64,000 bases of DNA from Micromonospora nigra (GTDB taxonomy: Bacteria; Actinomycetota; Actinomycetes; Mycobacteriales; Micromonosporaceae), in contig NZ_FMHT01000003.1 of the NCBI RefSeq assembly GCF_900091585.1, positions 2,155,501 to 2,219,500 on the forward strand, in the 5' to 3' direction. This document shows positions 1 to 30,373 of this stretch, piece by piece. The first letter of the stretch is position 1. Each line of letters begins with the position of its first letter. The notes below the pieces were generated by a model, which was given only the letters and a program-made list of their open reading frames with translations, had not been told where the DNA came from and did no database searches. A program made the position numbers and the translations under genes.

Positions 1-381
<381 letters not shown>

Positions 382-11303: not shown

Positions 11304-11612
11304 CTACAGCTTGATCTCGATGTCGACGCCAGCCGGCAGGTCGAGGCGCATGAGCGAGTCGACCGTCTTCGGGGTCGGGTCGATGATGTCGATCAGACGC
11401 TTGTGCGTACGCATCTCGAAGTGCTCGCGCGAGTCCTTGTACTTGTGCGGCGAGCGGATGACGCAGAAACGGTTGATCTCCGTGGGCAGCGGCACCGGGC
11501 CAGCGACCTGCGCCCCGGTACGCGTCACCGTCTCGACGATCTTCCGAGCCGAGGAGTCGACGATCTCGTGGTCATAGGCCTTGAGCCGGATGCGGATCTT
11601 CTGTCCCGCCAT
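11304..11612 (-). CDS. rpsJ: 30S ribosomal protein S10 / NusE
   Basis: Ribosomal head protein which also works as NusE in transcription antitermination with NusG (encoded at 29168-29890). The protein has 102 residues, [19 protein letters not shown] at the start and [13 protein letters not shown] near the end. Upstream in-frame ATGs would add residues unlike S10. First gene of the S10 operon, preceded by a leader of about 300 bases. Confidence 0.98.
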
Positions 11613-11926
11613 GGTGGCTTCTGTTCCTTCTCTCGATGCCGCTGTGTCGCGGGCACCTGTACCGGCTGGCACAGGCCCACTTCCGCCGACCCCCGCGGTC
11701 GGGCGTGTCGCGCCCGTGGGTCGAGCTCCGCCCCGGGCTCCGGAGCGATTCCCTGACCACGCAATTGGGGGTCTGTGGCGCCGATCGCGGTGACCGCGAC
11801 CCGGACGCCGTACGAGGGTGGTTGACCGCCAGGGGCGATCAACCACCCTACGCGCGACGGTTCGTTCGCCCGGAGGTCCAGCTTTCGCCGGACGCAGGCA
11901 ACCAACTGTCGTTACGCAACCTGACT
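11613..11926 (-). promoter_or_regulatory. Long 5' leader of the S10 operon with shared ribosomal-protein element
   Basis: This 360-base gap between tuf and rpsJ holds no gene. On the minus strand it contains an 11-bp perfect hairpin (arms 11815-11825 and 11839-11849, AGGGTGGTTGA, 13-base loop) close to the predicted transcript start. It also contains the block GCGACACGCCCGACCGCGGG at 11692-11711, identical to one in the rpsL leader (16519-16538). The block sits in a possible stem CGACCC...GGGTCG with an inner GGGCG/CGCCC hairpin. It is likely a cis-acting RNA controlling this operon; the ligand is unknown. Confidence 0.6.
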
Positions 11927-11956
11927 AGTATGCCGCACGACCGGCGGCGACGCTAA
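11927..11956 (-). promoter_or_regulatory. Predicted S10 operon promoter (TTAGCG-N18-CATACT)
   Basis: The -35 TTAGCG (11951-11956) and -10 CATACT (11927-11932) are 18 bases apart on the minus strand, placed just past the tuf stop. Transcription would start near 11920, giving a leader of roughly 308 bases. It separates the S10 cluster from the str operon, although read-through from tuf is also possible because I see no strong terminator between them. Confidence 0.5.
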
Positions 11957-11971
11957 TCGGGGTTACCCAGT

Positions 11972-13165
11972 TCACTTGACGATCTTGGTGACGCGACCCG
12001 CGCCGACCGTACGACCACCCTCGCGAATCGCGAACTTGAGGTTCTCCTCCATGGCGATCGGCTGGATCAGCTTCACGCTCATGGTGGTGTTGTCGCCCGG
12101 CATGACCATCTCGGTGCCCTCGGGCAGCGTGACGACGCCGGTGACGTCCGTGGTCCGGAAGTAGAACTGCGGGCGGTAGTTCTGGAAGAACGGGGTGTGC
12201 CGGCCGCCCTCCTCCTTGGAGAGGATGTAGACCGTGGCCTCGAACTCCGTGTGCGGGGTCGTGGTGCCCGGCTTGATGACGACCATGCCGCGCTCGACGT
12301 CCTCGCGCTTGATGCCACGCAGCAGCAGCCCGACGTTCTCACCCGCGCGGGCCTCGTCGAGCAGCTTGCGGAACATCTCGATGCCGGTGCAGGTGGTCTT
12401 CATCGACTTCTCGCGGATGCCGACGATCTCCACCTCCTCGTTCGGCTTGAGGATGCCACGCTCCGCGCGACCGGTGACGACGGTGCCACGACCGGTGATC
12501 GTGAAGACGTCCTCGATCGGCATCAGGAACGGCTTCTCGGTCTCGCGCTCCGGCTGCGGGATCGCGGTGTCGACCGCGTTCATCAGCTCCATGAGCCGGC
12601 CGGTCCACTCCGGGTCACCCTCAAGGGCCTTCAGGGCCGAGACCCGGACGACCGGCAGGTCGTCACCCGGGTACTCCTGCGAGGAGAGCAGCTCACGGAC
12701 CTCGAGCTCGACGAGCTCCAGGAGCTCCTCGTCGTCGACCATGTCGCTCTTGTTGAGCGCCACGACGATGTACGGCACACCGACCTGACGGGCCAGCAGC
12801 ACGTGCTCGCGGGTCTGCGGCATCGGGCCGTCGGTCGCCGCCACCACCAGGATCGCGCCGTCCATCTGGGCGGCACCGGTGATCATGTTCTTGATGTAGT
12901 CGGCGTGACCGGGGCAGTCGACGTGCGCGTAGTGCCGCGCCTCGGTCTGGTACTCGACGTGCGCGATGGAGATCGTGATGCCCCGGGCCTTCTCCTCCGG
13001 CGCCTTGTCGATCTGGTCGAACGGCGTGTACGGGTTCAGGTCCGGGAACTGGTCGTGCAGGACCTTGGTGATGGCCGCCGTCAGCGTCGTCTTACCGTGG
13101 TCGATGTGACCAATGGTGCCGATGTTGACGTGCGGCTTAGTCCGCTCGAACTTCGCCTTCGCCAC
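11972..13165 (-). CDS. tuf: Elongation factor Tu
   Basis: GTPase delivering aminoacyl-tRNA to the ribosome; 397 residues, full length. G1 GHIDHGKT (19-26), G3 DCPGH (84-88, with catalytic His88) and G4 NKSD (139-142) are all present. GTG start with GGAGG 7 bases ahead. The 221-base gap to fusA holds two modest hairpins (around 13238-13256 and 13330-13350) but no gene. Last gene of the str operon. Confidence 0.99.
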
Positions 13166-13386
13166 TGGTGTCCTCCTGTGGACTTCTTGGTTCGTTCGCC
13201 CCGGTGCGCCGGTCGGCGCTTAGGACTCTGTCGACAGCCTTTCCGGCCTGGCGGCCGGAGAGCTTTGGTGGGTTCTGCGGCGATGAAGCCTACAGGCCCG
13301 GTCACACACATCCCGACCGAGGTGGCCGCGGGCGGACGAATCCGTCCGCGACCAGCCCCGGATCACCGGGTCAGCTCAGGAGAGCG

Positions 13387-15483
<2,097 letters not shown>

Positions 15484-15523
15484 TTCAATCCCTACTTATC
15501 GTCGTCTCGACACAACTGGTGGC

Positions 15524-15552
15524 GGTTCCGGCGCCGGTCCGGCGCCGGAACC
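15524..15552 (-). repeat. 12-bp hairpin between rpsG and fusA
   Basis: Arms GGTTCCGGCGCC (15524-15535) and GGCGCCGGAACC (15541-15552) are exact reverse complements with a 5-base loop, starting 6 bases past the rpsG stop. Candidate attenuator or RNA-processing site lowering EF-G relative to S7/S12; no U-run. Confidence 0.55.
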
Positions 15553-15558
15553 AGGGTG

Positions 15559-16029
15559 TTACCAGCGGTAGTGCGCGAAGGCCTTGTTGGACTCGGCCAT
15601 CTTGTGGGTGTCCTCGCGTCGCTTGACGGCGGCGCCCAGACCGTTGCTCGCGTCCAGCAGCTCGTTCATGAGCCGCTCGACCATGGTCTTCTCACGACGG
15701 GCCTTGGAGTACGTCACCAGCCAGCGCAGGCCGAGCGTGGTCGCCCGGGCCGGGCGGACCTCGACCGGCACCTGGTAGGTCGCGCCACCGACCCGGCGGC
15801 TGCGGACCTCGAGGGTCGGCTTGACGTTGTCCATCGCGCGCTTGAGCGTGACGACCGGATCGGTGCCGCTCTTCTCGCGGCAGCCCTCCAGGGCGGCGTA
15901 CACGATGCGCTCGGCGAGCTGACGCTTGCCGCGCAGCAGGATCTTGTTCACCAGCTGGGTGACCAACGGCGAGTTGTACACCGGGTCAGCGACCAGCGGC
16001 TTCCGCGGAGCGGGTCCCTTACGCGGCAT
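15559..16029 (-). CDS. rpsG: 30S ribosomal protein S7
   Basis: Primary 16S-binding protein of the 30S head, 156 residues. Start [20 protein letters not shown] is the family N-terminus; an in-frame ATG 20 codons upstream would overlap rpsL and was rejected. Contains [19 protein letters not shown] and [14 protein letters not shown]. One base after rpsL. Confidence 0.98.
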
Positions 16030-16030
16030 C

Positions 16031-16405
16031 TCAGCTCTTCTCCTTCTTCGCGCCGTACCGGCTGCGCGCCTGCTTGCGGTTACGGACACCCTGGGTGTCC
16101 AGCGAACCGCGGACGATCTTGTAACGCACGCCGGGGAGGTCCTTCACCCGGCCGCCGCGGACGAGCACGATCGAGTGCTCCTGCAGGTTGTGACCGACGC
16201 CCGGGATGTAGGCGGTCACCTCGATCTGGCTGCTGAGCTTGACGCGAGCGACCTTGCGGAGCGCCGAGTTCGGCTTCTTCGGGGTGGTGGTGTACACGCG
16301 GGTGCACACACCGCGCCGCTGAGGGCTGCCCTTCAGCGCCGGGGTCTTGGTCTTGGTCGTCTTGGCCTGGCGGCCCTTTCGGACCAGCTGCTGGATGGTG
16401 GGCAC
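16031..16405 (-). CDS. rpsL: 30S ribosomal protein S12
   Basis: Decoding-centre protein of 124 residues. The streptomycin-relevant lysines K43 ([11 protein letters not shown]) and K88 ([11 protein letters not shown]) are both present, so this is the streptomycin-sensitive, non-hyperaccurate form. First gene of the str operon (rpsL-rpsG-fusA-tuf), with a strong promoter and a leader of about 300 bases upstream. Confidence 0.99.
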
Positions 16406-16703
16406 CGGGTTTCTCCGCTCCCTTCGGCCGCTGCCGCGGCCGCGCCGTCTGCTCGTTAGCCGCCTGCTGGACGGCTCTCCTACATTCCGACCGGAGCCAC
16501 CTCACGATGGCATCGGCACCCGCGGTCGGGCGTGTCGCCCCACCCACGGTCCCGGTGCCGGCACTCGCGCGCGGACCGGGGATTCTGTCACCGGCACACG
16601 GCAGGCCGCGCACCGGATCTTCGACTCTCGTTCGTGACGCCGCCGGAATCCGGAACGCCGGATCCAGCGCACGCACGAGTTGCCCGGGCGGGCCCGGGCA
16701 CAA
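16406..16703 (-). promoter_or_regulatory. Long 5' leader of the str operon with shared ribosomal-protein element
   Basis: The stretch 16406-16898 contains no gene, only the rpsL leader, its promoter and the end of the upstream unit. On the minus strand the block GCGACACGCCCGACCGCGGG (16519-16538) is identical over 20 bases to the rpsJ leader. It lies inside an outer stem GGCACC/GGTGCC (16515-16520 and 16555-16560) with an inner GGGCG-ACA-CGCCC hairpin. Two long leaders sharing a structured block argue for a common RNA control element. Confidence 0.6.
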
Positions 16704-16709
16704 GGGGAA

Positions 16710-16738
16710 AGAGTACCTACCACAGTCGAGCTGGTCAA
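16710..16738 (-). promoter_or_regulatory. str operon promoter (TTGACC-N17-TACTCT)
   Basis: A near-ideal vegetative promoter on the minus strand: TTGACC at 16733-16738, 17-base spacer, TACTCT at 16710-16715. Start would be near 16703. The best promoter match in the window, as expected for rpsL-fusA-tuf. Confidence 0.8.
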
Positions 16739-16898
16739 AACGGGGACACCGGTCGGCGGCCACCTGCCCGCCAGCCCGACCCGTCATGCCTGCCTGCCCG
16801 TGATGGGCACCTACAAACACAAGTGTACCGGCTTCCCCACCGGGCCACCCGCCTGGCCCCCGGCTGAACCGACCGGGCACCGCACCGTTGCCGCAGCG

Positions 16899-17696
16899 TC
16901 ACGCCAACGACAGCAGCACGCCCAGCACCAGGCCGAGCAGGTTGATCAACAGCCCCGTACCGCCGCAGCTCACCCCGGCGATGGCCAGGCCCCGGCCGGT
17001 GAACCGGACCGCCGGCGGTGCCGCGGGCCGGCGGATCTGCCGCATGCCCAGCAGGCCGGCGACGACCGCCCCGGCCCCGGTCAGCAGGCCCAGCAGGGCG
17101 AAGGCGGCCGCCGCCCAGACTCCTCCGCCCCTGCCGGCCACCGCGCCTATGCAGACCACCAGCAGGCCGACCAGGACCGAGACGACGCCGGCCACGAGGG
17201 AGCCGACGGCCAGGCCGGACGTGACCGGCGCGACGTCGAGGTGCACCATCCCGAACGGGGTACCCGGCACCGCCTCCACCCGCTTCGGCGGCCGGGGCCG
17301 CTCCTGCGGCGGGGGCGGCGCGGCGACCGGAGCCGGCCCGCCCCCACCGGCCGGACCGGCGACCGGGCCCCAGACGGCGGGAGGACCGGCGGGAGGCGGC
17401 AGGGGGACGGCAGGGGGCGACGCGACATGACCCGCCGGGGGTGACCCGACGGCATGGGCCGCGTGACCCGGCGGGAGCGGCGCGGCGGCGTGGGCCGCAG
17501 GACCCGGCGCGGGCGCATGACCCGGCGCGGGCGCAGGACCCGGCGCGGCCGCCGCGGTGGGCGGCGGCGGGTGGTTCGGCGGAGCCGCCTCCGACGGCGG
17601 GCCGGAACCCTGGTCGGGCCGTGCCCACTGGCTCGGCCCACCCACGGCACCGGGCTGCCCGGGATCGCCGCCCGGGGGGCGCACCGGTTCCGTCAC
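16899..17696 (-). CDS. Proline-rich membrane protein, DUF4190-like C-terminus
   Basis: 265 residues. The first 135 are Pro/Ala/Gly-rich low complexity with PAPGHAPAPGPAAH-like repeats. The remainder has three hydrophobic segments (about 155-185, 190-215, 238-265) in the arrangement of small DUF4190-type actinobacterial membrane proteins. Function unknown. The proline-rich part would be outside the hydrophobic core and may be a protein-protein interaction tail. Lies between rpoC and the str operon; probably co-transcribed with the next gene upstream (17790-18158). Confidence 0.75.
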   Translation of the reverse strand: MTEPVRPPGGDPGQPGAVGGPSQWARPDQGSGPPSEAAPPNHPPPPTAAAAPGPAPAPGHAPAPGPAAHAAAPLPPGHAAHAVGSPPAGHVASPPAVPLPPPAGPPAVWGPVAGPAGGGGPAPVAAPPPPQERPRPPKRVEAVPGTPFGMVHLDVAPVTSGLAVGSLVAGVVSVLVGLLVVCIGAVAGRGGGVWAAAAFALLGLLTGAGAVVAGLLGMRQIRRPAAPPAVRFTGRGLAIAGVSCGGTGLLINLLGLVLGVLLSLA

Positions 17697-29013: not shown

Positions 29014-29035
29014 CCGACCCGCCGTCGGGCGCGCA
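29014..29035 (-). promoter_or_regulatory. Leader element before rplK related to the rpsJ/rpsL block
   Basis: On the minus strand GCGCGCCCGACGGCGGGTCGG occupies this stretch, sharing CGCCCGAC-G/C-GCG with the rpsJ and rpsL leaders. As in rpsJ, an outer CGACCC/GGGTCG pair can close it. About 40 bases before the rplK start. Confidence 0.4.
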
Positions 29036-30351: not shown

Positions 30352-30373
30352 CCGCACGCCGTCGGGCGTGCGG
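30352..30373 (-). promoter_or_regulatory. Hairpin in the secE leader containing the CGCCCGACGGCG core
   Basis: Exact 9-bp arms CCGCACGCC / GGCGTGCGG with a 4-base loop, about 30 bases before the secE GTG. The tip and 3' arm contain CACGCCCGACGGCG, related to the block shared by the rpsJ and rpsL leaders. Confidence 0.45.

Follow-up and report, generated by a model that had tools for sequence, protein, structure and literature searches.

Why should the leaders of two different ribosomal-protein operons carry the same 20 bases? The question is raised by a 64,000-nucleotide (nt) stretch of the Micromonospora nigra genome (NZ_FMHT01000003.1, positions 2,155,501 to 2,219,500; hereafter the window), in which the block GCGACACGCCCGACCGCGGG occurs in two exact copies, at 11692-11711 before rpsJ and at 16519-16538 before rpsL, both on the minus (coding) strand. 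A preliminary description of this DNA saw in the block an RNA element. I arrive at a different answer, to which I give a probability of about 0.84: the block is part of an asymmetric DNA operator of about 24 base pairs (bp) for the protein WhiA that follows the rpsL promoter, recurs in the leader of rpsJ and coordinates the str and S10 operons.

Results

Two copies of one block

That an identical block is common to the rpsL and rpsJ leaders, on the transcribed strand, is confirmed, and its recurrence is far above the level of shuffled DNA. Shuffled windows hold on average 0.19 matches to it at three or fewer mismatches, and none of 100 shuffles reaches two mismatches. In the whole genome, a search allowing up to three mismatches returns eight places, and only the rpsL and rpsJ copies have fewer than two. 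The copies start 99 nt (rpsJ) and 133 nt (rpsL) ahead of the start codon.

Conservation and extent

The rpsL and rpsJ genes of relatives were located by their proteins, independently of the motif, and a site was counted when at least 17 of 21 positions matched, a rule that favours invariance. Every Micromonosporaceae leader examined carries the site (60/60 rpsL, 55/55 rpsJ). Across the class, in manually selected regions (at least one and up to several for each family, taken from part of the genome list), it is present in 56 of 60 rpsL and 18 of 48 rpsJ leaders. A further set of rpsL loci has it in 18 of 30, and named actinobacterial contigs (L039-L079, some from outside the class) in 25 of 40 rpsL and 14 of 24 rpsJ leaders. 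Where both leaders were readable (127 loci), 81 loci have both sites, 35 that of rpsL only, six that of rpsJ only and five neither; at least one copy is kept in 122. Site-bearing genera include Micromonospora, Phytohabitans, Streptomyces, Nonomuraea, Nocardioides, Terrabacter, Knoellia, Mycolicibacter, Gordonia, Saccharothrix, Cellulomonas, Demequina and Brevibacterium. Lineages differ in the copy they keep: L257-L271 have the rpsL site only, and L279 and the pairs L187/L326, L188/L324, L189/L322 and L190/L321 the rpsJ site only.

In tallies that include loci chosen by the motif, the best sense-strand scores are bimodal (17-21 and 12-16), and on the antisense strand, the control, a score of 17 is reached once per gene and never exceeded. 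Motif-chosen loci, and some genomes twice, also enter the tallies of 182/214 (rpsL) and 112/152 (rpsJ), on which the covariation, stem-arm and promoter counts below are built. The column counts for 246 sites come only from loci not selected by the motif.

The consensus spans about 24 bp, CGACACDCCCG-NNNN-CGKGG-NNCG, with sharp edges and with flanks that are unconserved across the whole set; Micromonosporaceae alone have extra conserved patches beyond it. Positions 3, 4, 6, 8-11 and 19 never vary among the 246 sites, and variation is seen, among others, at positions 7, 18 and 20-22 and at the four positions of the centre. Columns 2-9 agree with the core GAYACRCY already published for WhiA (in Streptomyces, GACAC): G stands at position 2 in 242 sites and A in four, positions 3 and 4 are A and C in all 246, position 5 is A in 245, position 6 is C in 246, position 7 is R in 244, and positions 8 and 9 are C in 246. 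Positions 16-20, CGKGG, form a second conserved block, which WhiA may also read.

Evidence for WhiA

Published work on WhiA already places this protein before rpsJ. The GAYACRCY core precedes the rpsJ operon in the majority of species that retain whiA; Actinobacteria are named among the groups having the rpsJ operon, and in some clades a clade-specific second motif follows downstream (PMC11701221). In Mycoplasma gallisepticum, WhiA represses the rpsJ operon and senses ATP, its helix-turn-helix (HTH) domain binding GAYACRCY and its endonuclease-like domain the downstream auxiliary motif (Fisunov et al. 2024, PMC11701221). In Streptomyces venezuelae a GACAC core emerged from chromatin immunoprecipitation sequencing (ChIP-seq) and footprints, and rpsJ is a ChIP-seq target with its peak 75 bp before the start codon (PMC3781837, Table 1). 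In five Streptomyces-type rpsJ leaders (L056, L223, L224, L226, L227) the site starts at -85 to -90, which agrees with that peak. A further paper uses rpsL as an internal control (PMC4457907).

The HTH_WhiA domain is present in all 38 host genomes tested, which gives no support to loss of WhiA as the cause of motif loss. The WhiA of M. nigra, 331 amino acids long, has the WhiA_N, LAGLIDADG_WhiA and HTH_WhiA domains of Pfam and is close to the WhiA-named chains of PDB 8dy7 and 8dy9, entries that I take to be RNA polymerase with WhiA and WhiB.

Where the pattern occurs

With at most one mismatch allowed, the pattern has a match in 188 of 296 genomes of the class. The class-wide pattern search returned 30 loci, 17 of them before rpsL and 13 before rpsJ, none elsewhere. 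In 50 genomes CGACACDCCCGNNNNCGKGG has 82 matches, against three for the reversed pattern. Fourteen of these are in genomes without an rpsL coordinate; of the other 68, the rpsL leader accounts for 22, the rpsJ region (defined as 3-20 kb downstream of rpsL on the same strand, rpsJ itself not being checked one by one) for 31, fusA codons (assigned by sequence and place as codons for DTPGHV) for five and other places for 10. In the window, the codons of the G3 box of EF-G (DTPGHV; fusA, 15225-15244) spell CGACACGCCCGGCCACGTCG, and in some relatives they read ...CGTGG; here and in the fusA region of relatives G058, G143, G240, G289 and G310 they turn up repeatedly as false matches to the motif. 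Outside the class, 14 loci matching the pattern have neither rpsL nor rpsJ in their stretches of at most 3 kb.

Shorter relatives had also been proposed before rplK and secE. The words exist (12-mers at 29020-29031 and 30357-30368) but both lack GACAC, as does the 9-mer before secY. The core of these 12-mers, at one mismatch or less, occurs 11 times where 13.9 are expected, and in 31 rplK, 18 secE and 23 nusG leaders sense scores are no higher than antisense scores. Chance-level counts and the antisense comparison thus lead me to reject relatives before rplK, secE and nusG. What survives of the idea of one element across several operons is the pairing of rpsL (str) with rpsJ (S10), far above chance; its extension to rplK and secE, and its description as an RNA with covarying stems, are not borne out.

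Promoters and position in the leader

The promoter pattern TTGACn-16..19-TAnnnT lies upstream of the element in 144 of 182 rpsL leaders and in none of 182 once-shuffled ones, and the distance from promoter end to site is 20-274 bp (median 126). Because this conserved predicted promoter lies upstream, the rpsL site should be transcribed, as the preliminary description supposed in placing the element within the leader. The rpsL promoter of the window (Table 1) is near-invariant in the family and frequent over the class. From site to start codon the distance is 54-247 nt at rpsL and 59-316 nt at rpsJ. A -35-like second motif of the Firmicutes/Mollicutes form was not found at the host sites, nor was TAnnnT at a fixed offset.

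The same promoter pattern precedes only two of 112 rpsJ sites. The leader length of about 300 bases given earlier therefore holds for rpsL, measured from the predicted promoter, but not for rpsJ, where the tuf-rpsJ gap is 359 nt and the promoter is not settled. Within this gap, 11815-11849 form a perfect 11-bp hairpin, AGGGTGGTTGA/TCAACCACCCT, with no U tract, parts of which recur in close relatives. At 11915-11932, also before rpsJ, CATACTagtCAGGTTGCG resembles a conserved -10 and start region, and Demequina has the counterpart CACAATATTCAGGTTGC.

Viral contigs

A scan of IMG/VR with the same pattern gave at least 120 stretches, and 80 listed loci (L331-L410) were examined. Among these, 49 reach a GC content of at least 48% and appear to be chance matches in GC-rich DNA; 31 fall below 48%, and six of the latter hold two to four full copies. 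The low-GC loci were selected for holding the motif and may be mutually related. In the 23 loci below 42% GC (228 kb, both strands), CGACACGCC occurs 108 times, and 74 times when the full motif is masked. Over the 756 orderings of its letters, the next commonest (65, 57, 57, 38 and 19 occurrences) represent this one site in shifted register, and the most frequent unrelated ordering occurs nine times. TTGAY follows within 25 nt at 16 (22%) of the 71 core sites that lie outside the full motif and have 30 following bases, against 7.4% of random 25-mers, and at 10 of the 71, in 10 of the 23 loci, this -35-like box starts exactly 10 nt after the core. This fixed spacing points to recognition of DNA and argues against RNA. 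Low-GC contigs among L331-L409 (e.g. L388, L389, L377, L338, L347, L393) are rich in CGACACGCC, in some cases in the form CGACACGCCGTGTT and roughly 10 nt upstream of a TTGAC box.

At 12 loci with a crude gene call, the full viral copies are mostly intergenic, several of them overlapping small doubtful frames, and they take either orientation relative to the nearest gene. WhiB-family genes occur in seven of 25 low-GC viral records, in none of 11 GC-richer records and in one of 14 control genomes (Corynebacterium glutamicum), and one of the viral proteins is WhiB-like by PDB search. The viruses with operator arrays probably infect actinobacteria, their presumed hosts. In 12 viral records the search for WhiA itself gave one sub-threshold match, whose open frame is by eye not WhiA. 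Against INPHARED phages a 30-base query (E <=10) returned 44 records, none convincing, and one low-GC viral contig had no useful relative there. Several low-GC contigs have TGTGAT..ATCACA-like palindromes between the copies of CGACACGCC, which are presumably CRP/GlxR-like.

Discussion

DNA operator or RNA element?

The same bases could work as a cis-acting RNA leader, the 24-mer forming the hairpin CGAC-A-C-D-CCCG/NNNN/CGGG-G-GNCG for a ribosomal protein or an antitermination factor. All sites found before rpsL and rpsJ are in sense orientation and inside a leader, at variable distance from promoter and start codon; free-energy minimisation of the consensus 26-mer yields this hairpin; both flanks are fixed and the four centre positions vary. 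The inner GGGCG/CGCCC arms noted earlier can indeed form from the window sequences. Yet the covariation claimed for the outer stems is contradicted: among 126 distinct sites no hairpin pair tested changes on both sides, the covariation score is at shuffle level, and pairs that vary mostly break pairing. The stem of Streptomyces-type sites contains a C-T mismatch. Folding is no better than that of shuffles (z = -0.74 for the consensus 26-mer, -0.96 to 0.14 for six others), and Rfam has no match at the element, either at E <=10 (window 11500-16900) or at E <=5 (seven loci). The GGGCG arm is complete at 34% of rpsL and 28% of rpsJ sites, against 13% and 16% in shuffled upstream DNA, and is not general; the outer arms, scored by their best 6-bp match, reach 37% against 42% in shuffles at rpsL and 50% against 39% at rpsJ. 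Fold scores, pair changes and arm counts thus reject a hairpin with covariation, and since the element holds the full WhiA core and WhiA occupancy at rpsJ is published, I regard an RNA leader as improbable. An antitermination or mRNA-stabilising element was dropped given the WhiA papers and the fixed spacing of the viral cores to -35-like boxes. As to mimicry of ribosomal RNA, the 23S of the same genome gave no close match: the best ungapped match of the 12-base core has two mismatches, and two gapped matches score 24, where none of 50 shuffles exceeds 22, both of them in DNA that flanks the 23S. This comparison covered the 23S of the genome itself; no 16S was found, and runs of N mask part of the loci.

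If the element is DNA, it might still be the operator of another actinobacterial protein that includes GACACRCC by coincidence. At 24 bp the conserved site far exceeds the GACAC pentamer that most WhiA targets share (PMC3781837), and the published core does not contain the class-restricted extension. Nevertheless rpsJ is a published ChIP target of WhiA at the matching position (PMC3781837), for WhiA a footprint in two parts, some 20 bp long, and a second motif downstream are already on record, and no alternative candidate was found, no systematic search having been made; I consider another protein very unlikely. Recurrence of a GC-rich word by chance or through codon usage has a precedent of sorts in the DTPGHV codons of fusA, where a related word recurs, but the shuffle control, the conservation and the antisense controls contradict it, and the invariant positions are spread over all three codon positions, which leaves it a negligible probability. 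By inspection, the same spread speaks against a short leader peptide.

Several observations weigh against WhiA as the protein that reads the element. Position 2 changes from G to A in four of 246 sites, giving AACAC in place of GACAC. The spacing between rpsL promoter and site is variable (20-274 bp), unlike the Mycoplasma site with its -35-like second motif. Among 30 rpsJ leaders from other classes of the phylum, five of them readable over only 81-177 nt, GAYACRCY is absent from 29, and the sole match, 266 nt upstream of rpsJ, apparently lies in tuf codons. The strict pattern is unmatched in the WhiA-bearing genomes G105, G185, G208 and G308; two of the four have variant rpsL sites (L310, L329), in a reading that did not take in the rpsJ leader of G185 or G308. 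A literature search of partial coverage that paired WhiA with rpsL found no report of WhiA binding there. GACAC sites are described as lacking a consistent orientation (Bush et al. 2013, PMC3781837), against the uniform orientation at rpsL and rpsJ. Finally, whiA mutants of S. venezuelae express translation genes less, which implies activation (PMC3781837), and Mycoplasma shows repression (PMC11701221); with the two literatures at odds, either sign of control would be conjectural here. As a separate observation, CAACAC stands for CGACAC at four rpsL sites (L245, L297, L310, L316), and two of the genomes are of 1.2-1.3 Mb.

A possible mechanism

On balance I favour the WhiA operator, and its mode of action can be sketched from the sequences and from Mycoplasma. 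The C-terminal HTH domain of WhiA would read GACACRCC, and the homing-endonuclease-like domain, by analogy with Mycoplasma WhiA, may contact the 3' half, CGKGG. At rpsL, WhiA is predicted to bind an operator that usually lies 100-180 bp past the strong promoter; a second operator would lie in the rpsJ leader. An operator at both operons argues for one regulator controlling str and S10 together, and WhiA would accordingly set the transcription of the str operon (S12, S7, EF-G, EF-Tu) and of the S10 operon jointly. Because the distance to the promoter varies, WhiA may act on the elongating polymerase, as a roadblock or pause, or may bend the DNA, and its binding could be tuned by an energy or cell-cycle signal.

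Table 1. Features of the window that bear on the proposed operator.
Feature	Position	Strand	Basis
Predicted rpsL promoter, TTGACC-17-TACTCT, 171 nt upstream of the element	16710..16738	-	TTGACn-16..19-TAnnnT pattern
rpsL (str operon) copy, C1-G24 of the consensus, T at position 20	16514..16537	-	Exact 20-mer and family conservation
Putative WhiA core GACACGCC, rpsL leader	16529..16536	-	Sequence compared with published GAYACRCY (PMC11701221, PMC3781837)
rpsL site, 3' conserved part CGGGT, putative auxiliary half-site	16518..16522	-	Column counts and analogy with PMC11701221
rpsJ (S10 operon) copy, C1-G24 of the consensus	11687..11710	-	Exact 20-mer and family conservation
WhiA core GACACGCC, rpsJ leader	11702..11709	-	Sequence and S. 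venezuelae ChIP peak (PMC3781837)
rpsJ site, 3' conserved part CGGGG, putative auxiliary half-site	11691..11695	-	Column counts
rpsL, ribosomal protein S12, first gene of the str operon	16031..16405	-	Pfam PF00164
rpsJ, ribosomal protein S10, first gene of the S10 operon	11304..11612	-	Pfam PF00338

Significance

A near-invariant 24-bp operator at two main ribosomal operons, in members of the class that range from genomes of 1.2-1.3 Mb (some with the G-to-A change) to Streptomyces, suggests a general and testable task for WhiA, as the link by which energy state or cell division would be signalled to ribosome synthesis. It is tempting to go further and suppose that the ancestral job of WhiA in actinobacteria was coupled control of str and S10 through paired leader operators, not sporulation, and that phages took over the system with operator arrays, many of them exactly before -35 boxes, and with WhiB-like partners. 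I offer this tentatively, at somewhat less than even odds. If it is true, phage promoters would answer to the WhiA state of the host. The operator also opens a route to gene timing in phages of uncultured actinobacteria. The case further carries a caution, in that a conserved block in a leader need not be RNA.

Comparison with known systems

The rpsJ half of this arrangement is known in principle from the available literature; what appears new is the copy at rpsL, the consensus in its full actinobacterial form and the low-GC viral contigs, the last without a literature search on viral WhiA sites. The r-leaders reviewed in PMC7247131 likewise stand in the leaders of ribosomal-protein operons. 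In its available text, Table 1 lists 20 of them, none for rpsL or rpsJ, and an S10 r-leader is mentioned in Firmicutes; the present element differs in having neither covariation nor a match to an Rfam family. In the S. venezuelae study GACAC is present, in either orientation, at about 70% of the targets, no further common sequence emerged from MEME, and the available main text has no mention of rpsL (PMC3781837); the GACAC core and the rpsJ target at the position predicted by the motif are as here. The available main text of the M. gallisepticum study likewise has no mention of rpsL, where the present system has its second copy, and the second motif there is GTTGT and -35-like, in contrast to CGKGG and an rpsL site deep in the leader. 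What the M. gallisepticum site shares with the element described here is the core itself, before the same gene, rpsJ (PMC11701221).
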